A stretch of 64,000 bases of DNA from a virus, in IMG/VR virus record IMGVR_UViG_3300013120_000030, positions 62,001 through 126,000 of that record; one strand, 5' to 3'. How positions within the stretch are numbered: position 1 is the first letter of the stretch; every line of letters starts with the position of its first letter. This document shows positions 1 through 63,876 of the stretch, piece after piece. A program made the position numbers and the translations under genes. A model generated the notes under the pieces. That model did not search any database. It was not told where the DNA came from and worked only from the letters and a program-made list of their open reading frames with translations.

Positions 1-1
1 T

Positions 2-9344: not shown

Positions 9345-9370
9345 CTATACTAGATAGGTAAGGAGTATAT

Positions 9371-9547
9371 ATGTTTATAGAAGCTAACATTACAATAGAT
9401 GTACCCGACGGCGTAGATATTACGCCTATTATACAACAAATAAAAGCAATACTAAGTCGTACTAACGACATGGATACAGATGTTCACATTATAGAAGTTG
9501 ATGACCCTATAAGTACTAATCCTGTAAATTTATCAAAGGTTATATAG
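9371..9547 (+). CDS. Small unknown protein (58 aa)
   Basis: ATG at 9371 follows a strong ribosome binding site (AAGGAG, 9360-9365) and runs to TAG at 9545-9547, directly abutting the HNH gene start. The protein begins MFIEANITIDVPDGVDITPI and has a ferredoxin-like alternation of strand and helix (IQQIKAIL, then VHIIEVDD). No family is recognised. It sits between the giant protein and the hub gene, so it probably belongs to the virion operon, with the HNH gene inserted right behind it. Confidence 0.65.
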   Translation: MFIEANITIDVPDGVDITPIIQQIKAILSRTNDMDTDVHIIEVDDPISTNPVNLSKVI

Positions 9548-27608: not shown

Positions 27609-28105
27609 TGAGACGTAAAAGAAGACCAAATCTTATAATAACTAATCGTAGTGTACTTCCATATAATATAGATGGTGATACTATGAAATTCAAGATTATA
27701 TATCGCGATGATCAACAGCAAAGTTATGTTGCTGGTATTAGTGGATACGTATATGGTAATATAGGAGTTAGTGGCGCTACTATTAATATGGGTCTATTTG
27801 TGACTGACAAGTTTGGTCAATGTGACTTCTTATATAATACCGACTTAATAGAAGATAGGAATATAAATACTGCTAAGTTTTGGGCTTCTGGAGTTCATGA
27901 AAATTGGGGACTAGATGTTAATTCTTGTATAGCAAGAGCAGACTATATATACATAGATCAACTAAGCGGTATTATTATAACAGCTGGTACTTGTGGAGAC
28001 TTTAATGATCTTGGAACAAGATATGACTTTGATGAATTTGATGGATATAGAATAACAGAATCAGGATTAAATAATATTACTGTTATAGAAAGGCCTTGGA
28101 TATAA
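27608..28105 (+). CDS. Small structural protein (165 aa), unknown
   Basis: The first ten residues are basic (MRRKRRPNLI). A beta-rich body follows, including GYVYGNIGVSGATINMGLFVTD and FGQCDFLYNT, similar in look to an immunoglobulin-like or carbohydrate-binding sandwich of tail proteins. The start overlaps the previous stop by one base and its own stop (28103-28105) overlaps the next ATG. No family is recognised. Confidence 0.5.
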   Translation: MRRKRRPNLIITNRSVLPYNIDGDTMKFKIIYRDDQQQSYVAGISGYVYGNIGVSGATINMGLFVTDKFGQCDFLYNTDLIEDRNINTAKFWASGVHENWGLDVNSCIARADYIYIDQLSGIIITAGTCGDFNDLGTRYDFDEFDGYRITESGLNNITVIERPWI

Positions 28106-30189
28106 TGTCAGTAAACTTCCTTAAGAAGAAAGATGGATACGATATAAGTATGTGTCCTATAGCTACAGTACGATTAGATGGATTTAGTCCTACAAAGATA
28201 ACTAAACTCATAGATTACTCTAATGATGTCCACGAGAATAGTGAAAACTATGTACAGACACAAATAATATTAGCTGATAGAGATGGAGCAGAAGATACTA
28301 CTCCTATCTCAGGATTTCCTCTTACATATTATGAGACAACATTCAGATATAAGTCTACATTCTTTGTAACAGATAAAGTTAACGATAACAATGATCCTTT
28401 ATACTTTTCTTACGAGTTAAAGTTTGATGTAAACGGCGTTACAGATACAGATATAATAGAAGTATTAAAGAATAATACTACACCTTTAAGACCTGATCAG
28501 TTTAAGCTACAGTTTGGACATGTATCTCTTACAGATAACTACTATGGTACCAAGGATGCAGGATTAGATAGGTATGGAAGGGATATAGTATGGGGTCCTA
28601 TAGATGGATCTAAGAATATACATAGGGTTAGAGTTTTACTGCCTATAGATGTTGTTAATAGAAGTGATTTTTACACTGTTAGATACAATAAGAGCCTGTT
28701 TAACATCAGTTATCCTGCTCATTTTGAGTTAGTAGAGTTAACAACACTGTATACAGAGACAATAGACTGGGATATACAGGAAGATAAGGTAGTCTTACCG
28801 ACGACATCCTTTATATCTAACGTTAACACTAAGCAGCTCTACATAACAAAAGATCCTAATGCACACATAGCCGTCGAAGGTGTTATAAGTATGAACGCTG
28901 AAGGATATCAAAGTGACGCTGAGTCATCGTGGAACGCACGCATATCACACGGTTCATTTCTTACTAACCTCGATGAAAGATTTTATCAAGCTAAGTTTGT
29001 ACCGATAGACGTCGATAACCCTCAAGAGAAATACCAGTTGATAACGTACGTTAATCCAAAGCTTCTCGGTGGTAACATCGTTAGAATCGAAGATGCTCCT
29101 ATTCATATTACCACAGTAGACGATTTAGGTTCGCCATCTGGATATGTATATCCTTACTATGACGTGACTATCTTTCCTAAAGAGTCGTTTGATAATATTA
29201 TACCTATTGGAACATTCGGTATAGACGTAGATGGTGTTGATGTTTCAAGAATAAAGATCTCATCTATAGACAGACAAAAGGGATACATACTGTTTAATAA
29301 GCAATTTAATCCACAAGAAGATGTAGATTTCTTCTTTTATACTGATTGTTCTAGTAAGTCTTATATATATAATCTAGAACTTAATCCTAGAATTAGTGGA
29401 GAGTATGGTATATCACATATATGTGAGAATACTATAAAGAATATAGGTGTTGCAGTAAGAGAGTCCCCAGAAGTTGGTGTCGGAGATTCTTATACTAATA
29501 GACTAAGATATCATAGTCTTTATTTCTTTGATTATGAAGCTGTTGCTGATGACGGTCAGGTCACTTTCTACAGGGGTAACCAAATTCCGGGGCTAAGTAC
29601 ATATAGTGAGGTAGGATACTTAAGATGGAATCCTTTCGACGGAAAAGAAAGTTCTACGGGACAGTTTATACCTTTATCACATGTTTCTGTTAATAGAATG
29701 TTTCCAGATATACTTACAGTGAGAGATGCTAGGATCATAGCAGGCGGTTTCACATCACAAGAACAGAAAAGGCTTAATAACGAACAAAAGAATTCATACA
29801 CAGATATAGGCTATTGGGATGGTGAACCATTACCTCACGCTGGACTTATAGTTATTCACTTACCTAGCACTATATATCCTAATCTTATAACCAAGTGGAA
29901 AGAGTCAGGTCTATTTAATCCTGACATGTATACAGATATAACAAAAGAAGAGATAGAACAACTAGCTGCAGCTAGTGGAGAAGATTATGATGAATATTAT
30001 AGTAAACTTCTAGAGGGTTACTCTGTTAATAACGAGAAAGTAAAAGATCCTTACGAGACTATGTTAACTTCATGGGCTAAGAAGGAAGCATCTCATTACT
30101 TAGATCAACTTATAAAGAAGTATATACCAGCAGGAACGCAGTATATACTATTAGATGAGAACTTTAATCAAATAAAATTGGATTTATAA
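28105..30189 (+). CDS. Tail/baseplate structural protein (694 aa), unknown
   Basis: I place the start at the ATG at 28105 (MSVNFLKKK), which overlaps the previous stop as TAATG, rather than the TTG nine bases earlier. The protein is mostly beta-rich. A helical C-terminus of about 100 residues has a Glu/Lys/Tyr-rich run (KEEIEQLAAASGEDYDEYY) that may mediate oligomerisation. No family is recognised. The stop overlaps the next ATG. Confidence 0.55.
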   Translation: MSVNFLKKKDGYDISMCPIATVRLDGFSPTKITKLIDYSNDVHENSENYVQTQIILADRDGAEDTTPISGFPLTYYETTFRYKSTFFVTDKVNDNNDPLYFSYELKFDVNGVTDTDIIEVLKNNTTPLRPDQFKLQFGHVSLTDNYYGTKDAGLDRYGRDIVWGPIDGSKNIHRVRVLLPIDVVNRSDFYTVRYNKSLFNISYPAHFELVELTTLYTETIDWDIQEDKVVLPTTSFISNVNTKQLYITKDPNAHIAVEGVISMNAEGYQSDAESSWNARISHGSFLTNLDERFYQAKFVPIDVDNPQEKYQLITYVNPKLLGGNIVRIEDAPIHITTVDDLGSPSGYVYPYYDVTIFPKESFDNIIPIGTFGIDVDGVDVSRIKISSIDRQKGYILFNKQFNPQEDVDFFFYTDCSSKSYIYNLELNPRISGEYGISHICENTIKNIGVAVRESPEVGVGDSYTNRLRYHSLYFFDYEAVADDGQVTFYRGNQIPGLSTYSEVGYLRWNPFDGKESSTGQFIPLSHVSVNRMFPDILTVRDARIIAGGFTSQEQKRLNNEQKNSYTDIGYWDGEPLPHAGLIVIHLPSTIYPNLITKWKESGLFNPDMYTDITKEEIEQLAAASGEDYDEYYSKLLEGYSVNNEKVKDPYETMLTSWAKKEASHYLDQLIKKYIPAGTQYILLDENFNQIKLDL

Positions 30190-33123: not shown

Positions 33124-33783
33124 ATGCATAAAATAGATATACAACAGTTAAAACTTGATTGGGATGAATGTAGAAATTTAACACAGTTAGAAAAAATATA
33201 TAGTTGTTCAAGAAAGACATTAGCTAGAAGACTTAACGGTATAGGTATAGACACAAATAAAAGACTATATCCTATTATAGAAGGTAAGAAAGAGTGTAGA
33301 GAATGTGGTAATACATTAACTATAGACAACTTTCATTCTATAAAAGTGACTATATGCAGAAAGTGTATTAAGAAGTATAATAAACAGTATCAATGTAATA
33401 ATAGATCTCATATAAATGCTAGCAGGAAACAACGTTATATCAATGATACTGGATACAGAATAGAATGTAATATAAGAAGTAGATTATGTAATGTTCTTGC
33501 TGGTAAGAATAAATCTGCTTCAACTAAAGAACTTTTAGGTTGTACAATAGATGAACTCAAAACGCATCTTCAGTCTACAGCTATTGTTAATGGTTATAAA
33601 GACTTCGATATTAATAGCTACTTAGGACATGAATATCACATAGACCATATACGTCCATGTTCTTCTTTTAATCTTAAAGATGAAGAAGAACAAAGACAGT
33701 GTTTTAACTGGTCTAACTTACAAATCCTTTCAGCTAAAGAGAATTTTAAGAAGGGTAATAAACTAACAGGACAAAATCTATAA
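33124..33783 (+). CDS. Free-standing HNH homing endonuclease with N-terminal HTH
   Basis: The 219-residue protein starts with a helix-turn-helix-like region (LTQLEKIYSCSRKTLARRLNGIGI, about 21-44). A zinc ribbon follows: CRECG at about 59-63 and CRKC at about 78-81. The HNH core is the same as in the 9548 gene (EYHIDHIRPCSSF...NLQILSAKENFKK). It lies between structural genes and its stop overlaps the next ATG, so it moved in without breaking the operon. The N-terminal third differs from the other copy, as when homing endonucleases exchange DNA-recognition modules. Confidence 0.88.
   Translation: MHKIDIQQLKLDWDECRNLTQLEKIYSCSRKTLARRLNGIGIDTNKRLYPIIEGKKECRECGNTLTIDNFHSIKVTICRKCIKKYNKQYQCNNRSHINASRKQRYINDTGYRIECNIRSRLCNVLAGKNKSASTKELLGCTIDELKTHLQSTAIVNGYKDFDINSYLGHEYHIDHIRPCSSFNLKDEEEQRQCFNWSNLQILSAKENFKKGNKLTGQNL
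33397..33629 (+). repeat. Duplicated HNH coding segment, copy 2
   Basis: Partner of 9848-10080: 87 bp identical (33397-33483) and 94 bp with one mismatch (33536-33629). The 52 bases between are diverged but of equal length. Synonymous positions are conserved too, which points to recent duplication or gene conversion rather than protein-level constraint. Confidence 0.9.
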
Positions 33784-48121: not shown

Positions 48122-50219
48122 ATGGATTTAACAAAACTAAAAGACGATATGCCATACAAATGGAAGCCTAACAATGCAGTAGGAAAACGAATGAACTGTG
48201 TGGCGTATGTTGACTCAAGACAGGTTCAAGATAAACTTGATCAGGTTGTCGGACCTGATAACTGGCAGGATGACTATAAAGTCATTAATGGAAATATGTA
48301 TGCAGGTGTTGGTATCAACGTAAGTAGTGATTCTTCATCACCTAGATGGGTGTGGAAGTGGGACTGTGGTACAGAAAGTAATACAGAACAAGCTAAGGGA
48401 GAAAGTAGCGATGCCTTGGTCGACCTTTTATAACTAACCTTTATTTCGAAAATAGTGATAAGTTTTATATTGAACGTTGGAGTAAAATATGAAAACAAAA
48501 ATATATGTAGTGTATAAACTATATTTCGAAAATAGTGATAAGTTTTATATTGGTAAGACTTGTAATATGAAATCTAGAATAAATGCTCATAAGAAGGAAG
48601 CATTAGCTAGAAAGTATAGAACATATAAAATCAATTGGCTTAGAAAACATTTACTCAATGACGAAGAGTTAAAGAGTGAGATTTTATTTAGAACTAATGA
48701 CGAGCGCGAAGCTTATGATGTTGAACAAAAATTTATTATTAAGACATCTAATGATAATGTTAACTGTTCATATAATCTTCAATATCCATCTAATAAATCA
48801 GAAGCTGGTCTTTTAAGAATGGCTGAAATATTTGGAAAAGATTATATTATCATAAATAAACAAGGCACATTTCTATATGTACATAGTTTATCTAGATTCA
48901 GTAGAGAGAATAATCTTAACTATAAAGATCTTAATGCTTGTGCTCGTAAAAAAATAAATTCTTCACAAGGTTATAAAGTGTTCTATAAAGATGATTGGGA
49001 TGACTTTTCTGAAGAAGAGAAGCAACTTGAGATAGAAAAACATAAAAAATACAATCAATATAAAACAGAGAAGTTTAAATGTAGTGGTGATAAATATAGA
49101 AAAGAATATATTATTATAGAACCAACTGGTAATGTTACCGAAATAGTTGGATTGTCTAGATATGTTAAAGATAATAAGTTAAATGATGGTAATATGACTT
49201 CAGCTTTAACTAATAATAAACTATATAAAGGTTATCAGGTATTTTATAAGTCTGAATGGTATGAATTTGATCAAGATACACGGACTAAACTCATATCAAA
49301 CTCTAAGAACTATCTTCCTAGAGGATCAAAGAGATATAAAATAACAGATCCAAATGATAATATCGAGATAATCGTTGGACTTAGTAACTATGCTAATAAA
49401 CATAAGTTACATGCACCTTCTTTATCATCTTTAGCTACTGGTAAACTAAATAAATACAAAGGTTATAAAGTAGAAGTACTTGAATAGGGCCTTCAGGATG
49501 GAAGTCTTGAAGCAAACTCCTCTAATTCAGGGGATACCCAAACAGATAAAGCTGTGGGCAATCCTGAGCGAAGCTCTGTAAAGAGAACGTGCAACGACTA
49601 ACTGTGATGAATGTAGCAGTGTAGGCCTAAGTAGGTCGAAACGGGGAGCATCCTTTGGGATGGTGATATAGTCTAGTCTGCATGGAAACATGCAGCTGCG
49701 AGTAATGTCGCGGGATAAGATTAACGACCTTGTCTGAATATAAACGTTAAGAGAGCTGCAGTTAAGTGGGGAGTTGGAAGATTCTTATACACTTTAGACA
49801 TGATACTCTTAGATCAGAAAGATTACAAAGGTCGACTCAAACCTTGTACAAAAGATGGTAAGATTCTTTGGAGTGGTGATGAAATCACTAACTACATCAA
49901 TAAAACTATTAAGAATAAGAATACTAGTAAAACTTCTTACAGTAATGACCATAAACCAACTGCTGGAAGATATAATCCAGATAAAGGTGGTGCAAACGTT
50001 ACGTATAGCAACAGTAGTGCTTATTCGCCTAATACTATTACTAAGGTCAAGAAACTGTCTAGAGATGGTAAGAAAGGTAAGGAAGTTCTTAAGGCTTACA
50101 TACCTGCTTACAATAAAGTAAAGAAGACTGACTATAACAGTATAACGCAGTTTACTACAGACGTATTAATAAATGATCTTATATCGTTTGTTGAGAATAC
50201 ACCACCAGCAGACGTGTAA
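48122..50219 (+). CDS. Rad52-like single-strand annealing protein, split by a group I intron
   Basis: Exon 1 is 48122-48416 and exon 2 is 49747-50219. Joined they give 255 residues. The joint restores the family's most conserved segment, SDAFKRAAVKWGVGRFLYTL, with the split Phe codon T|TT. Exon 1 has AYVDSRQVQDKLDQVVGPDNW and the Trp/Asp/Gly/Glu part WKWDCGTES, both typical of Rad52/Sak-type annealing proteins. These anneal complementary ssDNA during phage recombination. The C-terminal part (about 125 residues) is basic and of low complexity, perhaps for SSB or DNA contact. Read without splicing, the gene stops at 48433 after a changed tail. A promoter and terminator bracket it as a single-gene unit; the nuclease at 46070 is a probable partner. 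Confidence 0.9.
48442..48552 (+). repeat. 31-bp direct repeat around the intron endonuclease start
   Basis: The sequence starting TATTTCGAAAATAGTGATAA is identical at 48442-48472 and 48522-48552. The second copy is coding (YFENSDKFYI, the first part of the GIY-YIG domain). The first lies before the ATG at 48489 and is non-coding in the current gene. It looks like a partial tandem duplication or a leftover of an earlier 5' end. Confidence 0.9.
48489..49487 (+). CDS. Intron-encoded GIY-YIG homing endonuclease
   Basis: 332 residues. The N-terminus has the GIY-YIG core: IYVVYKLYFENSDKFYIGKT, then Arg in SRINAHKKEA and Glu in DVEQKFI. Three repeated units of about 70 residues follow, each ending in a GYKVFYKDDW-, GYQVFYKSEW- or GYKVEVLE-like block with VGLSRYVKDNKL- or VGLSNYANKHKL-like helices. 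These are intron-encoded nuclease repeats that bind DNA in a modular way. The stop TAG (49485-49487) overlaps the intron's internal guide GGGC, so coding and ribozyme sequence are fused at that point. It would promote homing of the intron into intron-less Rad52-like genes. Confidence 0.92.
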   Translation: MKTKIYVVYKLYFENSDKFYIGKTCNMKSRINAHKKEALARKYRTYKINWLRKHLLNDEELKSEILFRTNDEREAYDVEQKFIIKTSNDNVNCSYNLQYPSNKSEAGLLRMAEIFGKDYIIINKQGTFLYVHSLSRFSRENNLNYKDLNACARKKINSSQGYKVFYKDDWDDFSEEEKQLEIEKHKKYNQYKTEKFKCSGDKYRKEYIIIEPTGNVTEIVGLSRYVKDNKLNDGNMTSALTNNKLYKGYQVFYKSEWYEFDQDTRTKLISNSKNYLPRGSKRYKITDPNDNIEIIVGLSNYANKHKLHAPSLSSLATGKLNKYKGYKVEVLE

Positions 50220-50338: not shown

Positions 50339-53300
50339 ATGAATTATCAAGAAGTAATAAAAGAACTTCATGGAAAACTCGAAGACTATCTTAAGTCTCA
50401 AGGAGTTGAAATAACATCAAATGGATTCTTCTGCTGTATTCATCCGGATCATCCAGACAGATATCCTTCTGCTTCTCTTAACTACGGTAACGAGTTAAAA
50501 GGAAAGGTATTCCACTGCTTTAGTGGTAGAAGTCATGATGGAAACATATTTACTGCTGCTCATTGGTTAGAAGGTCTACCTTTACAAGGACATGACTTTT
50601 GGGAGCATACAATGGTAGAGCTATGTAAAAGATATAACATAGACTATGAGCCATTGGAAGTAGATGAAGGCACAAGAAGACAGTATCAAGCTTATAAAGC
50701 CACAAGAGATGCTGCTAAGATTATACATAACATGATCTATGATGGTGATGATCTGAAAGATCACGTAGGTATACGTCATCTTCTAGAAAGAGGAGTAACA
50801 AGAGAAAGTATAGAGAAGTGGGGTATAGGTGTCCTTACATCTTTCAAAGACTATAAGCACGGTATTCAACAGCTAGGCCACAATGATGAGAACTTCCTGT
50901 ACTCTAAGGACTTGATGAACAAGAATCTGTTCAACAGAGACAGCTTCATCATACCTATACATGACCACTCTTCAAGAGTTGTAGGGTTTGTTACAAGGAA
51001 CTGTAGGATTAATCCTAATGATCATGTGACAAGAAAGTATATTAATACTATTAATACTGACATCTATGAGAAGGGTAGCATACTCTTTGGATATCATAGA
51101 ATAAAGAACATGAGCGGGCCTCTCTACATAGTAGAAGGTTACTTAGATGCTATCATGTTAGAGCAAGCTGGTCTACAAAAAGTTGTAGCAATAGGTGCTA
51201 CTGTTCTTACTAACCATCACATTACAGAAACTTTGTTTAATGATCAGACAGATATAATACTATGTCTAGATGCTGACAAGGGTGGTGAGGATGGAGTTAA
51301 GTTAGCATTAGAAAGAATGGCGTGCTACCGTAAGTTCAACGTTACTATCATAGATCTACCTAGAGACTACGATCCTGACACATACGTTAGAGAGTTTGGA
51401 ATAGAAGCTTTCCAAGCGTTAGAAAAGTTGTCTCCATTTGCATGGTCTTTAAAGCACAGTGAGTACAGTGACGACATGACAATTGTAGCAGAAAAGATGA
51501 TACCTATCATCGCAGCAGAAGAGTCTTCTATCACTAGACTTAGAATGATAAGAGATTTGTCTAACTATACAGCTATACCTGAACTAGATATCAGAAGAGA
51601 TGTAGACGCATTAGTATCTAAAGAAGATGATAAGTACTTACAAGGTATACGTGATATTAATCAGTATGCTGGTGCTCAGTTATCTAGACGTAAGGTCAGT
51701 GACACTAAGAGTATTCTAAGAGATGCTCTTAATAAAGTAGAGATCTTAGACGAGAAACACAATAGTGTAAAAGATATGCAGAATGAGTATATGAATAAGT
51801 TACAACATCTAGATAATAAGTTACAAGAAGGTGACTTTAAGTACGGACTTCTATGTCCAAAACATAAAGGTATTGAGACTACATTAGATGGTATACCTTA
51901 CTGGACTTGTATGACACTGTTCGGCGGAAGACCATCGGCAGGAAAAAGTTTGAGACCTGGAACACAGGTATTAATGTACAATGGTAATATAAAAAAGATA
52001 GAAGATGTTAAAGTAGGTGATCAATTAATGGGACCAGACTCTAATCCTAGAAACGTTCTTGCATTAGGTACAGGTGAAGAGGAGATGTATGATATCATAC
52101 CTAAACGTGGCATGAAGTGGGGATGTAATGAACCACATATACTGTCTCTTCGTATGAGTTCTGATAATGGTGATGTATATAAAAAAGATGATATTATTAA
52201 CTTACCAATAAAGGATTATATGTGTAAAAATACTAAGTTTAAACATCATGCTAAACAATGGAGAACTGGTTGGGAGTTACCAACTAAACGTATACCATAT
52301 GATGCATATTATATAGGTAGTTGGTTAGGTGATGGTAGTAAAGATAGTGCTGAGATAACAACTGGTGATCCAGAGTATGTAGAATCTTACTATAAAGCGT
52401 TTGCTAATAAGTTTGGATTTAGAATGTCTAAATATCATCAAGAACGTAATACATACGTATATAGAATGTGTAAAACTTCTGGTAAAACTAATCCGCTCTT
52501 AAATTATTTAAGAGATAAGTGTTTGGTTAATAATGAGAAACGTATACCTAAAGAATACTTACATAACTCAAGAACCATAAGACTAGAACTATTAGCTGGA
52601 CTTATAGATACTGATGGATATCTTGTAAGAAAAGATTCTGGAACATATGAAATTACTACAAAATACGCACGTCTAAGAGATGATATACTTTACCTTGGAA
52701 ATTCATTAGGATTCTTATCTACATATAGTGATAAGAAAGTAACCATAAAAGAAGGAGATGTTAGAACTTACTATAGAATACATATATCAGGTAATATACG
52801 TGAAGTTCCAGTTAAGATAGAACGTAAGAAGTCTATAACTTCTAATAGAAGAACTAATCATCAAAACGTTGGCTTTGATATAAAACATACTGGAAAAGGT
52901 AAGTACTACGGAGTTGTTCTTGATAATGATCATCTATTCTTACTAGCAGATGGTACCGTGACACATAATACGGCTTTCATGACAGACTTGTCTCTAGATA
53001 TAGTAGAAGCTAACGACGACGCTGCTATCTTTTACATGTCTATAGACGATAACATGGATTTACTAACAACCAAGATGTTAGCTGTAAGAAGTGGTCTATC
53101 TACTACTGAGATAAAAGGTTACAAAGATCTTAGAGGTGAAGACAGAGATTCTTACCATGAAGCTATGCAGTTCTTAAAGAACAATGCTGACAGGTTTATC
53201 ATAGCTGACGCTATACAAGGAAACAGTGTAGACGCATTAGAGAATCATGTAAGATGGTTTTGTAGAGAGTTCAAAGACCAGAAGAAAGTGTTCTTACTAG

Positions 53301-53758
53301 ATAACTTTCACAAACTTAGGATGGAGATAAGAGGTCAGACAAGAAAGAGCGACGCTATCAGTGATACGTCTCAACAGATTAAAGAGATTACTCAGTTAAA
53401 TGACATACATATAATGTCTACAGTAGAGCTTAGAAAGCTTCAGACTAATACTGATAGACCTACAAGGAATGATATGCAAGGTAGTGCTAAGCTAGACTAC
53501 GATGCAGATGTTATAGGACTTGTTCACAATGATATGCAGGTGAATAGGAATACAAGACTTGTTCACTACCAAGATGTTCACGGAAAATCGAGAGCGATGC
53601 CATGGATAGAGTTATCAATAGATAAGAACAAGATAAACGGTAAGGACTCACAGATAGTGTATAAGTACAATAAGCACAACATGCAGTTCTCCGAAGGTAG
53701 TACTAAAGACTTTTATAAGTTAAAAGATCAGATGAAACAACGTAACATAAACTTCTAA
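50339..53758 (+). CDS. Primase-helicase fusion with an intein in the Walker A loop
   Basis: The mature protein is 798 residues after removal of 341 intein residues. A CHC2-like zinc region opens it (CCIH at 32-35, HC at 59-60; the fourth Cys of the usual set is replaced, perhaps by His66). A TOPRIM primase core follows: VEGYLDA (Glu266) and DADKGG (Asp311, Asp313). A DnaB-type RecA helicase comes last. Its Walker A is GGRPSAGK|TAFM, split by the intein after Lys536. Walker B is KKVFLLDNF (Asp988), and the QGSAKLDYDADVIGL segment is the usual motif H4-like part. The organisation is like T7 gp4: priming and unwinding at the fork in one chain. Loss of helicase activity is expected until the intein splices. 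Confidence 0.93.
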   Translation: MNYQEVIKELHGKLEDYLKSQGVEITSNGFFCCIHPDHPDRYPSASLNYGNELKGKVFHCFSGRSHDGNIFTAAHWLEGLPLQGHDFWEHTMVELCKRYNIDYEPLEVDEGTRRQYQAYKATRDAAKIIHNMIYDGDDLKDHVGIRHLLERGVTRESIEKWGIGVLTSFKDYKHGIQQLGHNDENFLYSKDLMNKNLFNRDSFIIPIHDHSSRVVGFVTRNCRINPNDHVTRKYINTINTDIYEKGSILFGYHRIKNMSGPLYIVEGYLDAIMLEQAGLQKVVAIGATVLTNHHITETLFNDQTDIILCLDADKGGEDGVKLALERMACYRKFNVTIIDLPRDYDPDTYVREFGIEAFQALEKLSPFAWSLKHSEYSDDMTIVAEKMIPIIAAEESSITRLRMIRDLSNYTAIPELDIRRDVDALVSKEDDKYLQGIRDINQYAGAQLSRRKVSDTKSILRDALNKVEILDEKHNSVKDMQNEYMNKLQHLDNKLQEGDFKYGLLCPKHKGIETTLDGIPYWTCMTLFGGRPSAGKSLRPGTQVLMYNGNIKKIEDVKVGDQLMGPDSNPRNVLALGTGEEEMYDIIPKRGMKWGCNEPHILSLRMSSDNGDVYKKDDIINLPIKDYMCKNTKFKHHAKQWRTGWELPTKRIPYDAYYIGSWLGDGSKDSAEITTGDPEYVESYYKAFANKFGFRMSKYHQERNTYVYRMCKTSGKTNPLLNYLRDKCLVNNEKRIPKEYLHNSRTIRLELLAGLIDTDGYLVRKDSGTYEITTKYARLRDDILYLGNSLGFLSTYSDKKVTIKEGDVRTYYRIHISGNIREVPVKIERKKSITSNRRTNHQNVGFDIKHTGKGKYYGVVLDNDHLFLLADGTVTHNTAFMTDLSLDIVEANDDAAIFYMSIDDNMDLLTTKMLAVRSGLSTTEIKGYKDLRGEDRDSYHEAMQFLKNNADRFIIADAIQGNSVDALENHVRWFCREFKDQKKVFLLDNFHKLRMEIRGQTRKSDAISDTSQQIKEITQLNDIHIMSTVELRKLQTNTDRPTRNDMQGSAKLDYDADVIGLVHNDMQVNRNTRLVHYQDVHGKSRAMPWIELSIDKNKINGKDSQIVYKYNKHNMQFSEGSTKDFYKLKDQMKQRNINF
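51947..52969 (+). mobile_element. Intein in the primase-helicase (341 aa)
   Basis: It begins with Ser (51947), LRPGTQVLMYNGNIKKIEDV as block A, and ends TVTHN (Asn at 52967-52969); the +1 residue is Thr, which also completes the Walker A GKT. Ser1 with Thr+1 is a less common but functional pairing. Two LAGLIDADG motifs are visible: YYIGSWLGDGS and LLAGLIDTDG. Insertion at the ATP-binding loop is a classic intein site. Confidence 0.93.
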
Positions 53759-55242: not shown

Positions 55243-57864
55243 ATGAAGAAAAAACTACTAATAATAGCGGACAGTATCAAGCGACAAACTGGCTATTCTA
55301 CTGTCGCTACTAACATAATCAATAACATAGACCATTCGAAGTTTGAGGTAGCCCAACTAGGTCTTGCTGATATACCTGTTGACTATACTAAGACTAAGTT
55401 ACCAGTACATCACTACTCTGTGATGAAAGATCATTCTCAGTGTTGTAAACGTGGTCACTTAATAGAATACTATAATAAAGATACAGGTGAGCTAACTAAT
55501 ATTGTTCCTAACCTTACTGTAGACAATCATCCACAACAAGGTATATGTCCAAGAGGAACTAATTTACCAGGAGATGTGTTCGCACAAGAATCAGCATTCT
55601 TTGTTATACAACACTATAAACCTGATATAGTAATAGCTATCAATGATGTATGGGCGTTGTATCATTATAATTTTCTACGTAACAGAAAAGACTTTGTGTA
55701 TGTACCTTACCTAGCAGTCGATAGTGAGTGTTTTCCAATGCACATCCATGCTCAGAAACCAGGAATGCCACCTATAGATACTTTAAAGTTTCTTGGACTG
55801 AACGATGAGACTGTAGTATTTACCAACTTCGCTAAAAAAGAGGTAGATAAAACAGTAGAACTTGCTACAGACGGTGGAAAACTTGCTAAAGATATTAAGA
55901 TTATACCTCATGGTGTTGATATTTCATCTTTTAAACCTCTTGATAACAAGAAAGAACTAAGGAAGAAATATTTTCAGATAGAAGATGATAGTGTATTCTT
56001 GATAGGATGTGTTCAACGTAATCAACCTAGAAAAAGAATGGATGCTATCTTTCAAACTTTAAAGATACTTAAAGATAAGTATGAAGAAAAAGGAAGAAAG
56101 ATAATGGTTCACTTTCACTGCGCTATGAATGATAACCTCGGATGGGATCTTCCGCACTTAGGAAAAGTATACGGAGTACTAGATTCGTGTGTGTTTGATA
56201 ATAAGTTATCTCCAGGAATGGGTGTACCAGTTGATGTTCTAAACGAGATTATTAATTGTTATGATATGCACTTAACTTTAACAAATTCGGAAGGATGGTG
56301 TAGTTACGGTCATACCAATGTCTTAACGGAAAGTTGTATTAAAAGATTAGATGAGATAACTGATAATGATAAAGTTATTACTCACACAGGTAAGATAAAG
56401 AAAGTTCTTAAGCCGTTATCTAGACATTATAGTGGTGATATGATAAAAATTAAATATACTGGTGCGACAAGAGAAGTGTCTTTCACGCCTAATCATAATG
56501 TGTTAGTTCGTAGAAATGATACTAATGCGTGGGTAAGATCTGATGAGTTAACTATATCAGATAGGTTATGTTTACCTATTCCTAAATTTGAAAAACAAGA
56601 TTCAATATTACATATAAAAGATCTTATTCAAGGTATAAATGTAGTCAATGAAGATGATCAACTGTTAATATTGACTGATTATAATAAGAAAGACGGAACA
56701 TATGTATCACACATTAATAAAAAGACAGTTCCCATTAAAGCTGTATGGAACATAGATGAACAAATGGCCACACTATTTGGAAACTTTATAGCAGAAGGAT
56801 CAACTAATAGTAGTCAAATAACATTTTCTATTAATGCTCAAAGAGATAATATTATTAGAAAAAATGTTATAGACTTTGCAACAAAGTTTAAACTTAAGTA
56901 TAATCAATATATCATGGAAAGAAACAGAGAAAATATATCTGTAAGTTCGACGATATTATCGCATATGTTTAAATCTTTTGGACAAGGTGCTAAGAATAAA
57001 GTAATACCTCATGAAATATTTAATATAGTTTCAGGAAATAGTAAGTTAACCAAAGCGTTATTAAACGGATTAATAGAAGGCGATGGATGTTTTAATACAC
57101 AGAATGCTATTACTTATACAACTATATCAAAAACACTGGCATACCAAGTGAAGACTTTATTTCTTAGTCTTGGCATATTTGCGAGAATATATGAACACAA
57201 AGAACGAAAATCATTTGATGTTTGGGTGCAAGGTGGAAATAATATTAATGAAATGTCTAAATGGATAGATAAGATACCTAATAACATAAATCTTCCACAA
57301 CAAAAACGTAATATTCAAACAAAACAAGATAATGATTATTTCTATCCTAAGATTAAAGGAATCATAAAAGAAGAATATAACGGTGTAGTGTATAATATAA
57401 GTGTGGAAGACGATGAGTCATATATAACTGAAGGATTTGCTGTTCACAACTGTCTTCCTATCTTAGAGACAATGAGCGCAGGAATACCTAATGTTATAAC
57501 TGACTACTCAGCTCATGGAGACTGGGCATCTGGAACAGCATTAAAGGTAAAGCTAGCGGCTAAGATACATGAAGTTAAAACTAACCACATCAAAGGTATA
57601 GCTGACATCAACGACGCAGCTAAAAATGTGTCACTACTATATAAGTCAAAGAAACTATTGAAAGATTATCAGAAGAGATCATTAAAGCTTGCTAACAAGT
57701 TAGAATGGTCAAAGGTTTGCACTCAATGGAACAAGCTTCTAGATGAACTAGACTTAAGTAAGTTAGAAGATGGAAGATATGATCTTACAGTAATAGAACC
57801 TGCTAACGAAAGCATTATCCCTGATAACCCAGTAACAACACCTTTTACCCTAGTGGAGGTATAG
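55243..57864 (+). CDS. GT4-type glycosyltransferase with an intein
   Basis: The mature protein is 489 residues. GT-B fold features: the N-terminal KKLLIIADSIKRQTGYSTVATNII block, IKIIPHGVDISSFKP, FLIGCVQRNQPRKRMD, and the donor-binding motif NSEGW|CLPILETMSAGIPNVIT, into which the intein is inserted. An unusual insertion with paired Cys (CCKRGH and GICPRG, about residues 66-110) may bind zinc. It would transfer a sugar from a nucleotide donor. The acceptor is unknown; the neighbours make UDP-6-deoxy-amino sugars. The donor motif contains the conserved Glu, so activity depends on splicing. Confidence 0.88.
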   Translation: MKKKLLIIADSIKRQTGYSTVATNIINNIDHSKFEVAQLGLADIPVDYTKTKLPVHHYSVMKDHSQCCKRGHLIEYYNKDTGELTNIVPNLTVDNHPQQGICPRGTNLPGDVFAQESAFFVIQHYKPDIVIAINDVWALYHYNFLRNRKDFVYVPYLAVDSECFPMHIHAQKPGMPPIDTLKFLGLNDETVVFTNFAKKEVDKTVELATDGGKLAKDIKIIPHGVDISSFKPLDNKKELRKKYFQIEDDSVFLIGCVQRNQPRKRMDAIFQTLKILKDKYEEKGRKIMVHFHCAMNDNLGWDLPHLGKVYGVLDSCVFDNKLSPGMGVPVDVLNEIINCYDMHLTLTNSEGWCSYGHTNVLTESCIKRLDEITDNDKVITHTGKIKKVLKPLSRHYSGDMIKIKYTGATREVSFTPNHNVLVRRNDTNAWVRSDELTISDRLCLPIPKFEKQDSILHIKDLIQGINVVNEDDQLLILTDYNKKDGTYVSHINKKTVPIKAVWNIDEQMATLFGNFIAEGSTNSSQITFSINAQRDNIIRKNVIDFATKFKLKYNQYIMERNRENISVSSTILSHMFKSFGQGAKNKVIPHEIFNIVSGNSKLTKALLNGLIEGDGCFNTQNAITYTTISKTLAYQVKTLFLSLGIFARIYEHKERKSFDVWVQGGNNINEMSKWIDKIPNNINLPQQKRNIQTKQDNDYFYPKIKGIIKEEYNGVVYNISVEDDESYITEGFAVHNCLPILETMSAGIPNVITDYSAHGDWASGTALKVKLAAKIHEVKTNHIKGIADINDAAKNVSLLYKSKKLLKDYQKRSLKLANKLEWSKVCTQWNKLLDELDLSKLEDGRYDLTVIEPANESIIPDNPVTTPFTLVEV
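56299..57450 (+). mobile_element. Intein in the glycosyltransferase (384 aa)
   Basis: It starts with Cys (56299-56301; CSYGHTNVLTESCIKRLDEI) and ends GFAVHN at 57448-57450 with Cys as +1, so that GW|CLPIL is restored. Block B is FTPNHNVLVRR. LAGLIDADG motifs are LFGNFIAEGS and LLNGLIEGDGC. Endonuclease and C-terminal blocks resemble those of the intein at window start. A host gene for glycan transfer is unusual for an intein. Confidence 0.93.
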
Positions 57865-58109: not shown

Positions 58110-58409
58110 ATGAGCACACAAGATTTATATAACTATGTTGCTAAAATAGAAAAGATATCCCCACGAGACGGGGATATCATAGCACTGAAACTTAATATAA
58201 GCGAGACACAAATGAGTGAAACACTTGTTCAAAGTATAGGAGAGCTTGCTGGTTTGCTAGAAGACTATGGTATTCAAAATCCTTTACTGGTGTTAGGAAA
58301 AGATTCTTCTATAGAATCTATAGACGATAAGACTTTAGCACACCTAGGACTTGCACGTATACCTAAGACAACAGAAACAGACTCAATCGTAGACGATTTA
58401 TACCAATAG
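58110..58409 (+). CDS. Small conserved-type phage protein (99 aa)
   Basis: KISPRDGDIIALKLN followed by a helix (SETLVQSIGELAGLLEDY) and NPLLVLGKDSSIESI fits a widespread small phage family whose members read PGD..v.klp..ls.eq...l...l...g...lvl. The function of that family is not known to me. The coding sequence contains a perfect 9-bp hairpin (58154-58162 with 58170-58178) over the KISPRDGD codons. Confidence 0.6.
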   Translation: MSTQDLYNYVAKIEKISPRDGDIIALKLNISETQMSETLVQSIGELAGLLEDYGIQNPLLVLGKDSSIESIDDKTLAHLGLARIPKTTETDSIVDDLYQ

Positions 58410-58418
58410 GATATATAG

Positions 58419-59555
58419 ATGAAGATACTTGTAAGAGGACCTTACTCACAATCAGGTTTCGGCGTTGCCTGTATAGGACTTATCAAAGTCCTGTTAAACG
58501 CTGGTCACGACGTTCAGTTTATCCCACTTAATACTAACCCAGGACAACATAAGATAGGATTCTCTCAAGAGCTTGCTACACTTATAGATAGTCTCGTGGT
58601 AGATGAGGACGCAAAGAAACATACTGAAGTAGGAATAGATGTAGGAAGTCTTATCTATGGGCTTTCTGTTCCGCCTTTAGAAGTTGATAAGAATATACTG
58701 TACTGCACAACAGAGACAACAGACATACACGAAGACTACGTTGCTATGATGAACGAAAAGTATGATGAAATATGGACAGCTACTAATTTTAATAAGATAG
58801 GTTTCATGTCATCTGGCGTTAGTAATACTATTAAAGTACTACCTCACGTCATAGATACTGATCACTTCAATCCGGAAGCATTGCCACTGAACATAGCTAA
58901 TAAAAGAGAGTTTAACTTTGTTGCTAACTTTGATCTATCATATAGAAAAGGATTACACTTACTACTCCCAGCATATACGGAAGTATTTGATGCGGATGAT
59001 GATGTTGCGTTGATACTTAAGATTACTAACAATAACTTTAAGGATAGAAATGCTGCTGTTCAAAAACTGAATGAGTTATTCTTTATGATGGATATTAATA
59101 GTAAAAAACATGCACCTATACTGTTCATGTTTGATATGTTACCAGATAACTATCTACCAGGACTTTATACAACAGGTGATGTTTATGTGGCACCTAATCT
59201 AGGGGAAGGATTCGCACTTCCTATTGCTGAGGCAATGGCGTGTGGTATTCCACCTATTGTGACAAGATGTGGTGGACCATTAGACTATGTTAATAGTAAG
59301 AGTGGATTCCTTGTATCATTAGATAAAGAGAAATCTACTATACCTATTCAAGATCAATCATTACTACAACGTGACCCTCGATACAGAGGAAGAAGCATCT
59401 TTAACATAGACATAGAATCTTTAAAAGAGAAGCTAAAAGATGCACACTTAAACGCAACAGAGACAAAAGAAAAAGGATTAAAAGCTAGAGAGCGTGTGCT
59501 TTCAAAGTTATCCCTAGAAGCAGTCACTAAGAAACTAGAGAAGATACTATGTTAA
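58419..59555 (+). CDS. GT4-type glycosyltransferase (378 aa)
   Basis: A GT-B enzyme of normal length with MKILVRGPYSQSGFGVACIGL at the start, VLPHVIDTDHFNP, YRKGLHLLLPAY and the donor motif GEGFALPIAEAMACGIPPIVT (conserved Glu and Pro residues present), followed by GGPLDYV. It carries no intein and so offers an uninterrupted comparison for the 55243 gene. It overlaps the methyltransferase start by seven bases. Donor and acceptor are unknown. Confidence 0.9.
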   Translation: MKILVRGPYSQSGFGVACIGLIKVLLNAGHDVQFIPLNTNPGQHKIGFSQELATLIDSLVVDEDAKKHTEVGIDVGSLIYGLSVPPLEVDKNILYCTTETTDIHEDYVAMMNEKYDEIWTATNFNKIGFMSSGVSNTIKVLPHVIDTDHFNPEALPLNIANKREFNFVANFDLSYRKGLHLLLPAYTEVFDADDDVALILKITNNNFKDRNAAVQKLNELFFMMDINSKKHAPILFMFDMLPDNYLPGLYTTGDVYVAPNLGEGFALPIAEAMACGIPPIVTRCGGPLDYVNSKSGFLVSLDKEKSTIPIQDQSLLQRDPRYRGRSIFNIDIESLKEKLKDAHLNATETKEKGLKARERVLSKLSLEAVTKKLEKILC

Positions 59556-59992
59556 GACTTAACTTAGGATGTGGATCCGTCAAACATGACGGGTTCACTA
59601 ATGTAGATATACTAGACAATGATAATGTAGATATTGTTCATGATCTCAATCAGATACCATGGCCGTTCGAAGATGAATCTATAGAGGAGATAATAGCAGA
59701 GGATGTGTTAGAACATTTACAGGATACACCAGCTATTATGAATGAAATGTGGAGAATATTAGAAGACGGTGCGACAGCAACCATTCAAGTTCCCGACGTA
59801 ATAAGAAATCCTCAATCAGCATACACCGACCCAACACATATACGTTTCTTCACCGATAGAACATTTGATTATTGGGATGAGAATACAGAGTTTGGTGAGA
59901 AGTATGGATACTATTATGATAATAAATACTCAATTATACATAAGTCATTCCCTTACGGTAATGTAAAAGTAGTGATGCAGAAGGTGACATAA
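59549..59992 (+). CDS. Short SAM-dependent methyltransferase (147 aa)
   Basis: LRLNLGCGSVKHDGFTNVDI is SAM-binding motif I with the acidic residue ending strand 2 (Asp). EEIIAEDVLEHL and NEMWRILEDGATATIQVPD are the motif IV/V part of class I methyltransferases often found in glycan clusters. At 147 residues it is shorter than most, lacking a full C-terminal cap. It may methylate a glycan end. It overlaps the glycosyltransferase before it by seven bases and the gene after it by one. Confidence 0.82.
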   Translation: MLRLNLGCGSVKHDGFTNVDILDNDNVDIVHDLNQIPWPFEDESIEEIIAEDVLEHLQDTPAIMNEMWRILEDGATATIQVPDVIRNPQSAYTDPTHIRFFTDRTFDYWDENTEFGEKYGYYYDNKYSIIHKSFPYGNVKVVMQKVT

Positions 59993-60702
59993 TGAAAACT
60001 ATTACACTACCAGTAGCTACAAGACCACACTATCTTAGACAAATGCTTGACACTCTTAAAGAGAATAACCTCGAAGGTTATAAGCTATACGTTAATGCAG
60101 AACCTAATCAAGCTGTTATAGATGTTATTAGATCTGTAGACTTTATACCTACTACTGTTATAGTTAATAGAGACAGACTAGGTGTAAGACAAAATCCTTA
60201 CAACTGTATCCAACGAGCGTTTGATGATGGTAGTACGTTTAATGTACACTTAGAAGATGATATAATATTATCACCAGATACATTACAGTTAGCTTCATGG
60301 TACTATAAAGAGTACAAAGATAAACCTTTGACTCATCTTAACTATGGTATGTTTAACTATAAAAGCAATCCGGATGAACCTGATAAGATTCAAGTTATAG
60401 AAGGTAAGTTTATAGGACTAGGATGGTGTACTTTTAAGGAGTGTTGGAATAAATGGTATAAGCCTTACTGGTTTGACGATAAGATTAACGCAGAGGTATG
60501 GTCACCACAGACTGTTGGATGGGATTGGTCTATAGCTGCCATAGCTAAGACAGATAACCTTACATCTCTACAACCTTTAACCTCTAGGACTAACCATATT
60601 GGAAGAGTAGGTGGTACTTATTGTGGAGCAGACTTTCACGATAAAACTTTTCCGCAGATAATTATTAACGACGAAGAAGTAGACACATTCGAGGTAATAT
60701 AA
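59992..60702 (+). CDS. GT-A fold glycosyltransferase-like protein (236 aa)
   Basis: It starts MKTITLPVATRPHYLRQMLDTL, the usual opening of GT2-like enzymes, and has NRDRLGVRQN and a metal-binding DxD-like site in NVHLEDDIILS. The C-terminal GWDWSIAAIAK and RTNHIGRVGG parts are common in phage glycosyltransferases of this type. Its start overlaps the methyltransferase stop and its stop overlaps the dehydratase start by one base each. The acceptor is unknown. Confidence 0.78.
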   Translation: MKTITLPVATRPHYLRQMLDTLKENNLEGYKLYVNAEPNQAVIDVIRSVDFIPTTVIVNRDRLGVRQNPYNCIQRAFDDGSTFNVHLEDDIILSPDTLQLASWYYKEYKDKPLTHLNYGMFNYKSNPDEPDKIQVIEGKFIGLGWCTFKECWNKWYKPYWFDDKINAEVWSPQTVGWDWSIAAIAKTDNLTSLQPLTSRTNHIGRVGGTYCGADFHDKTFPQIIINDEEVDTFEVI

Positions 60703-62777
60703 TGAAAGATAAGAAACTGCTTATTACTGGAGGCACAGGTTCCTTTGGGAACGCTGTGCTAGACTTGTTCTTGCCTACTGACATAGGTGAGATAAGAATC
60801 TTCTCTAGAGATGAGAAGAAGCAACATGATCTTAGAATGAAGCATCAGAATGATAAGATAAAGTATGTCATAGGTGATGTAAGAGACTATCAAAGTGTTA
60901 ACGCTGCTATGGTAGGAGTAGACTACGTGTTCAGTGCTGCTGCTTTAAAGCAAGTACCTTCGTGTGAGTTCCATCCTATAGAAGCGGTTAAGACTAACAT
61001 TCTTGGCACAGAGAACGTTCTAAATGCTGCTGTTCATAACGGCGTGAAGAAGGTTGTTTGTTTATCAACAGATAAGGCATGTCTTGATTTTCATTCACCT
61101 ATTGAATTAGACGATGGTACAACTGTTAAAATATCAGATATTGTTAGAGATAAAAAATGTGTCTCAGTAAAAACATTTGATGAAGATTCTAAAAAGTTTA
61201 AGATATCGGAGACAGTTGGATGGTATAAAACTAAACTTAATGGAAGAAAAATGATTTCTATTTCTTATGAAAATGGATTAGTCCATGGTAGATATCATCA
61301 GCGCGTTTTAGCTACAGAAGATCATGATATTTTAACAAGTAAAGGTTGGAAAAGTGCTGGAACTTTATCAAATAAAGATATGATAGTTACTAACGAATAT
61401 AAACCAAATGATAAACAAAAGTGTGTTCTTCTTGGGACTATTTTAGGAGATTCATCTTTAGTTAAATCTAATAGTAATAGAGCTTATCTGAAAATGGGAC
61501 ATGCTAAAGATCAACTACAGTGGTTAAGACTAAAAGCGGACGCTCTAGATATGAACTATAGAAAAGATACTGTTAATATAAATAAAGATAATAGACAAGA
61601 TTTTTACAATGTATATAGCAAAAGTAGCGCATATTTAACAGATATTTACGATGATATCTATATTAATAAAGTGAAAATTATTCCAAGAAAAATGTTTGCT
61701 GAATGTTTTAATATAGATAGTAAGCTATTATTATCTACATTATTACAAGATGATGGTTGTATTACACGAGATAACTTAATAAGACTTGCTACACATAGTT
61801 TTACAAAAGATGATGTTGAATGGTTAACAAAATATTTAACAAAGAATGGATATGAATGTAGTCCGTATAAATGTGTTGTTAATAATGAAAAATATAATAC
61901 TGTTTATTATGAAACAAGATTTACAAGACGTGGATCTAATAAACTAATCAAAGATTTACGTGGATATTTTATATTAGACTATAAGATTAACTGTGTAGAT
62001 TCATTTGATAAAACTATATGGAATATAAATAATGTTAAAGAAATATATTATGGTAAAGCTATTGTTAATAATCATAAATATATATCAAAAGATGTATATT
62101 GTTTAGATATTAAAGATACACATAACTTTATTGTTAATAATGTAGTTGTTCACAATTGTTATCCTATCAACGCTATGGGAATGTCTAAAGCTTTGATGGA
62201 AAAGGTATCTATAGCTAAGGCTAGAACTAACATAGATACTATTATTTGTAATACAAGATATGGTAATGTAATGGGAACTAGAGGATCTGTTCTTCCTGTG
62301 TTCATTGAACAGATAAAGAGCGGTAAACCTATAACTATCACTGATCCATTGATGACAAGGTTTATGATGTCACTACAAGAGGCTGTAGAGTTGGTACTGT
62401 ATGCGTTTAACCACGGATTACAAGGAGATACCTTTGTACAAAAATCACCAGCTGCGACAATAGCAGACATAACTGTGGCCATGGCTGAGATATTTAATGT
62501 TAATCCTATGTACAAGGTTATAGGCACTAGACATGGTGAGAAAAAGCATGAAGTGTTAATAGGTAAGGAAGAGATTTTGGTAGCTTCAGACCGTGGGGCT
62601 TACTACAGTGTTCCTATGAACAATAAGTCTATTAACTACCACAACTACTGTGCAGGTGATGACAGACTTACTCAAAATGAATACTACGGTTCAGATAACA
62701 CTAACAGACTTAGTGTTAAAGAACTAGTGGAGTTACTTAGTAAACAAGACTTTGTTAAGGAGGCACTAAGTGCGTAA
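60702..62777 (+). CDS. capE: UDP-GlcNAc 4,6-dehydratase (CapE/FnlA type) with an intein
   Basis: The mature protein is 332 residues, normal for the family. It has TGGTGSFGNAVL for NAD(P) binding, a GDVRDYQS segment and STDKA|CYPINAMGMSKALMEK, which holds the catalytic Met/Lys part of the SDR active site. The C-terminal RHGEKKHEVL, YYSVPMNN and YGSDNTNRLSV parts are like CapE/WbjB/FnlA and less like PseB. The enzyme converts UDP-GlcNAc to a 4-keto-6-deoxy L-sugar intermediate. The adjacent epimerase and reductase make the following steps. An intein (61080-62156) sits just before the active-site YPINAMG, so activity needs splicing. The +1 Cys replaces the usual Val. Confidence 0.9.
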   Translation: MKDKKLLITGGTGSFGNAVLDLFLPTDIGEIRIFSRDEKKQHDLRMKHQNDKIKYVIGDVRDYQSVNAAMVGVDYVFSAAALKQVPSCEFHPIEAVKTNILGTENVLNAAVHNGVKKVVCLSTDKACLDFHSPIELDDGTTVKISDIVRDKKCVSVKTFDEDSKKFKISETVGWYKTKLNGRKMISISYENGLVHGRYHQRVLATEDHDILTSKGWKSAGTLSNKDMIVTNEYKPNDKQKCVLLGTILGDSSLVKSNSNRAYLKMGHAKDQLQWLRLKADALDMNYRKDTVNINKDNRQDFYNVYSKSSAYLTDIYDDIYINKVKIIPRKMFAECFNIDSKLLLSTLLQDDGCITRDNLIRLATHSFTKDDVEWLTKYLTKNGYECSPYKCVVNNEKYNTVYYETRFTRRGSNKLIKDLRGYFILDYKINCVDSFDKTIWNINNVKEIYYGKAIVNNHKYISKDVYCLDIKDTHNFIVNNVVVHNCYPINAMGMSKALMEKVSIAKARTNIDTIICNTRYGNVMGTRGSVLPVFIEQIKSGKPITITDPLMTRFMMSLQEAVELVLYAFNHGLQGDTFVQKSPAATIADITVAMAEIFNVNPMYKVIGTRHGEKKHEVLIGKEEILVASDRGAYYSVPMNNKSINYHNYCAGDDRLTQNEYYGSDNTNRLSVKELVELLSKQDFVKEALSA
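61080..62156 (+). mobile_element. Intein in the CapE-type dehydratase (359 aa)
   Basis: It starts with Cys (61080-61082; CLDFHSPIELDDGTTVKISD) and ends NNVVVHN at 62154-62156 with Cys as +1. A block B-like ATEDHDILTSKGW is clear. LAGLIDADG-like motifs are LLGTILGDSSL and LLSTLLQDDGC, more diverged than in the other three. It is therefore probably an independent acquisition. Confidence 0.93.
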
Positions 62778-63876
62778 AGTAATGACGGTTGTAGGAACGC
62801 GACCTGAGATCATTAAACTGGCTGAGGTTATTAAGAAGTTAGATGAACACTTTGAACATATCCTTGTCCACACTGGACAGAACTATGACTATGAACTCAA
62901 TGAAGTATTCTTTAAAGACTTAGGTATACGTGAACCAGATGTCTTTCTTGATGCTGCAAGAGATACAGCTATAAGAACTATTGGGAATATTATGATGGAG
63001 ATAGAAGCTCAGTTTGAAGAACATAAACCTGATGCGTTACTTATATACGGTGATACCAATAGTTGCTTATGTGCATACGTAGCTAAGAGAATGAAGATAC
63101 CTGTGTTTCATATGGAAGCTGGTAATCGCTGTTTTGATCAGAGAGTTCCAGAGGAACTTAATAGGAAGGTTATAGATCACATCAGTGACATAAATATGAC
63201 TGTAAGTGAGCACGCTAGGCAGTACCTTATCCAAGAAGGTATACGTCCTGAGACAGTTATAAAGGTGGGTTCATCTATGAGAGAAGTAATGTCTAAGAAT
63301 ATGAAACTCTTAGACTTAAATAGTACACTAAGTGATAACAGCCTAATAGAAGGAAAGTACTTCCTTGTGTCTCTTCATAGAGAAGAGAACGTAGATAGTG
63401 ATAACTTCGAGAAGACTATCGATGCTTTGAACGGACTAGCGGAAAAGTACAGTTATCCTATCATTGTTAGTACCCATCCTAGAACTAGAGCAAGACTAGA
63501 TAAGAGTGGGGTAAAGTGTAACGAACTTATAAACTTTAGTAAGCCTTTCGGATTTTATGCTTACCAAGAACTACAAATGAACGCAGCGTGCGTAATATCT
63601 GACAGTGGAACTATAACAGAAGAGTGTTCTTTACTGGAGTTCCCAGCGGTTACTATAAGAGAAGCACATGAAAGACCAGAAGGAATGGACAACGGAGTAC
63701 TTATAATGTCTTCCCTTGATAAGGAAAGCTTATTAGACTCAGTTAAGATAGCAACGGAGATTCCTCAAGCGCAGGAATACGTAGATGATTACTTTGTAGA
63801 TGACGTGTCTTGTAAGGTGGTAAAGATTATATCTAGTTACATAGATTATGTTAATAGAACAGTATGGAGGAAGTAG
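62770..63876 (+). CDS. UDP-N-acetylglucosamine 2-epimerase (non-hydrolysing)
   Basis: GTG at 62770 with AAGGAGG eight bases upstream; it overlaps the dehydratase end. VGTRPEIIKLAEVIKKL, HTGQNYD, HMEAGNRCFD..VPEE.NRK, SLHREENVD, THPRTR and SDSGTITEE are all signatures of WecB/FnlC/CapG. The enzyme inverts C2 of the UDP-amino sugar. In the CapE-F-G pathway it acts last and gives UDP-L-FucNAc; with an RmlD-like reductase (WbvB-R-D type) the product is UDP-L-QuiNAc. All catalytic residues that I can recognise are present. Confidence 0.93.
   Translation: MRKVMTVVGTRPEIIKLAEVIKKLDEHFEHILVHTGQNYDYELNEVFFKDLGIREPDVFLDAARDTAIRTIGNIMMEIEAQFEEHKPDALLIYGDTNSCLCAYVAKRMKIPVFHMEAGNRCFDQRVPEELNRKVIDHISDINMTVSEHARQYLIQEGIRPETVIKVGSSMREVMSKNMKLLDLNSTLSDNSLIEGKYFLVSLHREENVDSDNFEKTIDALNGLAEKYSYPIIVSTHPRTRARLDKSGVKCNELINFSKPFGFYAYQELQMNAACVISDSGTITEECSLLEFPAVTIREAHERPEGMDNGVLIMSSLDKESLLDSVKIATEIPQAQEYVDDYFVDDVSCKVVKIISSYIDYVNRTVWRK

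Follow-up and report, generated by a model that had tools for sequence, protein, structure and literature searches.

A putative class-1 homing intein in the EX7E motif of a phage GT4-type glycosyltransferase

A glycosyltransferase gene of a tailed phage is interrupted, in the middle of its EX7E motif, by an intein with a LAGLIDADG endonuclease domain. The window, i.e., the 64,000-nucleotide stretch analysed here, covers positions 62001-126000 of the 140,183-bp virus record G000, and the interrupted gene is referred to as GT1. In GT4 enzymes, this motif binds the sugar donor. Very probably, the insert is a class-1 LAGLIDADG homing intein in the EX7E motif of a GT4-type enzyme and represents one instance of an insertion site general to GT4 genes; the phage has twelve inteins in total. 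The parts of the gene are listed below in window positions; here and later a slash within a sequence marks the insertion point.

55243-57864, plus strand: precursor open reading frame, GT4-type glycosyltransferase with intein, 873 residues plus stop
55243-56298, plus strand: N-extein, 352 residues, ending in TNSEGW and including the first EX7E Glu (codon 56290-56292)
56299-57450, plus strand: intein, 384 residues, class 1 (Cys1 ... His-Asn384)
56485-56496, plus strand: block B splicing motif TPNH (TxxH), read in the sequence
56773-56799, plus strand: LAGLIDADG motif 1, LFGNFIAEG, acidic residue kept, read in the sequence
57058-57087, plus strand: LAGLIDADG motif 2, LLNGLIEGDG, acidic residue kept
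57385-57450, plus strand: C-terminal splicing blocks F and G (VVYNISVEDDESYITEGFAVHN)
57451-57861, plus strand: C-extein, 137 residues, starting CLPILETMSAG with Cys+1; second EX7E Glu at 57466-57468

The insert occupies precursor residues Cys353 to Asn736. This agrees to the base with the complete intein proposed at 56299-57450 in the initial annotation, and the joined exteins have the 489 residues given there. Three domain models match the insert above their cut-offs: Pfam Intein_splicing (PF14890; E 8.6e-14, 52.1 bits against a cut-off of 35.8), LAGLIDADG_3 (PF14528; E 4.1e-14) and TIGR01443 intein_Cterm (E 2.6e-8, 35.1 bits against 15.6). The Cys1 codon at 56299-56301 supplies the class-1 nucleophile, and the VHN/C junction has the penultimate His, the terminal Asn and the Cys at +1.

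An AlphaFold model of the insert, built from four inteins at the same site (see below), has a predicted local distance difference test score (pLDDT) of 75.6 and a predicted template modelling score of 0.70. When it is searched against the PDB with Foldseek, the matches are VMA-type inteins together with PI-SceI (E 1.8e-18), as well as PI-PkoII and I-DmoI. The model thus predicts a Hint fold and a two-motif LAGLIDADG endonuclease fold, I-DmoI being among the structural neighbours. The class-1 inteins that match in structure are 7qsu, 1vde and 2cw7, and 2cw7 also matches in sequence (E 1.7e-11); identity to the top structural matches is only 13-19%. The insert resembles the class-1 LAGLIDADG inteins VMA/PI-SceI, TliVMA and PI-PkoII in the order of the splicing blocks, the TxxH and His-Asn motifs, the Cys nucleophiles and the two-motif endonuclease. 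However, its host is a nucleotide-sugar glycosyltransferase, while theirs are a V-ATPase or DNA polymerase. From its sequence, the GT1 intein is a real, complete and apparently functional element of a standard kind in an uncommon host.

The identity of the host is seen when the protein family is used as a profile. No match is obtained when the PDB is searched with the single spliced sequence, while a profile of six family members matches the chlorella-virus glycosyltransferase B736L (3oy2) with E 4e-10. In this alignment, the family sequence NSEGWGLSILETM falls on SSGEGFGLCSAEGA of B736L, and EGW...E falls on EGFG...E. A Foldseek search with a low-confidence model of an orthologue also places 3oy2 at the top, ahead of MshA, glycogen synthase and BshA, and tblastn matches phage genes annotated as glycosyltransferases (best E 3e-15). 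B736L (3oy2/3oy7) is the closest solved relative and has a matching E-G-F-G...E motif; it differs by having no intein and is only 17% identical to the host in the structural alignment. The spliced product has the exact EX7E spacing, E350-GWCLPIL-E358, aligned to the 3oy2 motif, and the intein is inserted between the second and third X (NSEGW/CLPILETM). EX7E is mentioned for GT4 enzymes in PMC2446393. We therefore assign the host, by predicted fold and motif rather than by Pfam, to the GT4-type transferases with a GT-B fold, and sugar transfer is its predicted activity. The proposed location of the intein in a GT4 donor-binding motif, and the homology of the joined exteins to glycosyltransferases, are both borne out by these comparisons.

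Natural empty sites exist in related phages, where the initial annotation had suggested looking for intein-less alleles. As single-protein queries against IMG/VR, neither the spliced extein nor the intein found a relative; relatives were reached by an IMG/VR search with the spliced terminase sequence. In the 147-kb relative G001 (IMGVR_UViG_3300033146_000946), the GT1 orthologue is 55% identical over its whole length and intein-free. A two-sequence profile brings the number of orthologues to five (49-63% identical), all of them intein-free and aligned to the joined exteins end to end, gap-free over the junction. Their site reads TNSEGW-[G/A]-L-[S/P]-ILETM, with Gly or Ala at +1, where splicing needs Cys. 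It may be that Cys (TGT) replaced Gly (GGN) at +1 when the intein arrived. DNA conservation at the junction is 0.71-0.75 compared to a gene mean of 0.63, and 17-32% of the stretches of the same size are at least as conserved. The claim that the intein reveals a homing target conserved among related phages is thus not supported in that form: the site is only moderately conserved, its +1 residue differs, and no orthologue carries the intein. The relatives supply the empty allele, yet they give no direct evidence for homing among themselves, as all five are intein-free. A recurrent target is better supported by unrelated GT4 genes with inteins at this very position.

The fixed form of splice junctions makes it possible to search for them with a pattern. 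Viral contigs and a genome collection were scanned with a DNA pattern that encodes His-Asn-Cys and, directly after it, the latter half of the GT4 motif. Among the viral contigs, the scan found L037, L065, L066, L067 and L071, the latter with identical copies in L073 and L074, plus L072, which has the same C-side but a truncated N-side and probably belongs to the same set. In the genome collection, 26 of 27 matches were due to chance; the only real one is L053, a 3.4-kb contig of a Candidatus Lokiarchaeota metagenome-assembled genome, and scanning 227 genomes from the same phylum gave no second case. The two-sided junctions are:

L037: EGF/C...HN/CLPLLEAMA
L053: EGF/C...HN/CMPIAEAMA
L065 and L067: EVS/C...HN/CITAMEAMA
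L066: EIS/P...HN/CISVVEAMA
L071, L073 and L074: ETS/C...HN/CLALIEAMA

In every two-sided case the insert is located at E-x-x/, and in the joined protein four residues separate the +1 Cys from the second EX7E Glu (e.g. E-GF-CLPLL-E). The joined exteins of these genes match Pfam Glycos_transf_1 (E 1e-9 to 7e-20) and the inserts match intein models, with LAGLIDADG in L037, L053 and L071 and HNH_3 in L065. The model scan gave no endonuclease match for the inserts of L066 and L067. The L066 intein starts with Pro instead of Cys1 and has a Cys in block F, features that presumably recall class-3 inteins. Judged by these junctions, the EX7E position is a recurrent site: LAGLIDADG, HNH or mini inteins occupy it in five or more unrelated viral GT4 genes and on one Lokiarchaeota contig.

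Within a set of 26 sequences, the best BLAST match of each of the four same-site LAGLIDADG inteins is another same-site member, while the HNH and mini inteins at the site form a second BLAST cluster. The simplest reading is that one residue position was invaded at least twice, by at least two intein lineages. Alleles at one insertion site are normally far more similar than inteins inserted elsewhere (PMC9957025); in contrast, the same-site LAGLIDADG inteins of the GT4 set are only 20-27% identical to each other. A phylogenetic tree of the inteins has good support for one of 18 inner branches and leaves the same-site clade undecided. The different intein types at one GT4 residue position provide a natural set for studying the preference for active-site loops. 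Some huge-phage inteins resemble those of GT1 or L067; they are inserted in ribonucleotide reductase and in a portal-like gene rather than in glycosyltransferases.

We suggest the following mechanism. The 873-residue precursor would be made with its donor site split, and the Hint domain would fold. Cys1 would then attack the Trp352-Cys1 bond (an N-S shift), followed by an attack of Cys+1 and cyclisation of Asn384. The exteins would be ligated as NSEGW-CLPILETM, which restores the donor site and yields the active 489-residue enzyme together with a free intein/endonuclease. By established intein chemistry, this self-splicing should occur soon after folding. During co-infection, the free endonuclease could cleave the gene of the other phage where it lacks the intein, and the break would be repaired by copying the intein. 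The active-site location is most likely explained by selection against imprecise loss combined with sequence conservation. Phage inteins are generally located in functional motifs or active sites (PMC5050341), and the GT1 intein resembles those of mycobacteriophages and actinophages in its active-site insertion, its sporadic presence and its intein-free relatives (PMC5050341, PMC9957025).

Several observations weigh against this picture of an active homing intein in a GT4 enzyme. Splicing and cleavage are predicted from intact motifs. No intein-bearing orthologue of GT1 was found by patterns that cover part of the collection, with the window's own record left out, and mobility at this locus is deduced from presence and absence, a pattern to which intein loss in the relatives may also have contributed. 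The tree is as compatible with one old invasion by the LAGLIDADG lineage as with several. The host-fold model has a low confidence (pLDDT 56.9), and the 489-residue spliced protein matches no Pfam family at E<1e-3. The last point, together with WecB/NeuC-type epimerases lower in the Foldseek list, could indicate that the host is some other enzyme with the GT-B fold, e.g. a UDP-GlcNAc 2-epimerase. This we find highly improbable: in both sequence and structure the best match is B736L, with MshA, glycogen synthase and BshA next, the EX7E motif has its exact spacing, the sequence searches match no epimerase, and the phage already has a separate WecB-type gene (62770-63876). The enzyme is rather one that standard family searches easily miss, because Pfam recognises neither the precursor nor the spliced protein as a glycosyltransferase.

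It could also be speculated that the intein is degenerate and splices poorly or not at all, leaving the glycosyltransferase inactive or working as two cleaved halves. Block A has an unusual form (CSYGHTNVLT), and the site context is new, the relatives having Gly or Ala at +1. This reading has a slim chance, as no known catalytic residue is missing, the reading frame is uninterrupted, and the orthologue identities above show that the two exteins are conserved. Another reading is that the intein, which splits the donor site, is kept as a regulatory switch, with GT1 and two further sugar enzymes, FnlA and GT2 (described below), off until splicing is permitted, e.g. by the redox state of Cys1 and Cys+1. 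All three inteins are placed in active-site motifs, and conditional splicing is documented in other systems (PMC6195587, PMC5790916). However, the relatives manage without the intein, the intact homing endonuclease motifs fit a selfish element, nine further inteins are found in genes without a glycan role, and the active-site position follows the general rule for phage inteins without any need for regulation. We consider a switch very unlikely. A combined reading, in which the EX7E loop is a general intein hotspot in viruses and archaea and the GT4 and FnlA inteins of this phage act as a coordinated switch that makes glycan synthesis depend on a host state permissive for splicing, appears very unlikely as a whole. 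Its hotspot half is close to shown, while regulation by conditional splicing is possible in the window phage but finds no support here. The preferred reading thus remains that of a homing intein at a recurrent GT4 site.

The two other sugar-enzyme inteins, those of FnlA and GT2, lie in the same glycan region as GT1. The window positions of the FnlA intein and of a neighbour of GT1 are:

61080-62156, plus strand: intein of 359 residues in a gene for an FnlA-type UDP-GlcNAc 4,6-dehydratase (60702-62777)
58419-59555, plus strand: GT3, a neighbouring GT4 glycosyltransferase without intein

The FnlA intein splits STDKA/CYPINAMG, adjoining the YPINAMGMSK segment. GT2, a second GT4 gene, lies outside the window at L011:2716-5094 (G000:128716-131094), and its intein (G000:129520-130770) likewise interrupts EX7E, but three residues further downstream than in GT1 (EGWDLP/CMELMACG). 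A pattern for the GT2 site, HN/CxExM, gave three matches, all in short frames without an upstream intein; by this pattern the GT2 insertion site is seen only in the window phage. The WecB-type gene and an RmlD-like reductase gene (L011:2-685) are also present in this region. Together with FnlA they suggest that a pathway of the UDP-N-acetyl-L-fucosamine type is encoded between GT3 and GT2. No homologues of FnlA or WecB turned up in G001. The gene order primase-helicase, GT1, GT3 is common to both phages.

Known phage intein hosts mostly belong to DNA packaging, replication and nucleotide metabolism. In mycobacteriophages and actinophages they include TerL, RecB-like proteins, RDF, nucleotidyltransferase, thymidylate synthase and methylases (PMC5050341, PMC9957025), and the word glycosyl is absent from both papers. 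Among the open-access papers found, none reports a glycosyltransferase as an intein host, a scope that leaves subscription papers and bioRxiv mostly outside. The initial annotation had called a glycan-transfer host unusual, which agrees with this literature; within the phage itself it is less exceptional, as inteins are also present in FnlA, in GT2 and at nine further sites. A carbohydrate-active enzyme, with a precise and recurrent position in its catalytic motif, is hereby added to the known intein hosts. Provisionally, the host class, the recurrent EX7E landing site and the very high intein load of one phage are new to the literature.

The twelve inteins, located by hand and by model, make up about 9.9% of the 140-kb record. 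Their hosts are ribonucleotide reductase (2), TerL (2), a giant protein (4), the primase-helicase, GT1, FnlA and GT2. Their positions in G000, and the window positions of two of them, are:

G000, first six: 8129-9097, 9152-10075, 26738-27964, 28421-29596, 56443-57657, 58117-59460
G000, last six: 59578-60816, 61717-62931, 113947-114969, 118299-119450 (GT1), 123080-124156, 129520-130770
Window 51947-52969, plus strand: primase-helicase (50339-53758) intein, 341 residues, Ser1, after the P-loop Lys (PSAGK/T)
Window 1-931, plus strand: C-terminal part of the fourth giant-protein intein; the giant-protein reading frame ends at 2029

Intein a of the ribonucleotide reductase probably starts at ALEDST with Ala1, four residues before the hand-placed boundary, because of the comparison with G001 (PSMR/SLQFAG). 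In G001 no intein or LAGLIDADG domain was detected, and its genes run through without an insert at those G000 insertion sites that it has. The two phages can therefore be used as a pair for studying intein accumulation. Recent copying among the inteins of the phage was rejected, as they are only about 20-26% similar where alignments are long. A genome crowded with self-splicing elements is also known from crAss-like phages, with up to three inteins and 14 introns per genome, a density termed unprecedented (PMC7886860). Unlike these, G000 has twelve inteins and few intron candidates.

One such candidate interrupts the ribonucleotide reductase gene, which is continuous at this point in G001, with a GIY-YIG/NUMOD1 reading frame (L006:10249-11185, G000); it has no Rfam match at the gathering threshold. 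A free-standing GIY-YIG endonuclease frame (window 48489-49487) directly follows a short frame (48122-48433) that resembles part of a single-strand-annealing protein, which suggests another interrupted gene. Two free-standing reading frames between virion-type genes (window 9548-10216 and 33124-33783), without a Pfam match, share a near-identical HNH-like stretch (NRSHINASRKQRYINDTGYRIECNIRSR...). Finally, an Rfam tRNA match at L011:10087-10229, minus strand, which is not called by ARAGORN, contains roughly 70 extra internal bases and is possibly an intron-bearing tRNA.
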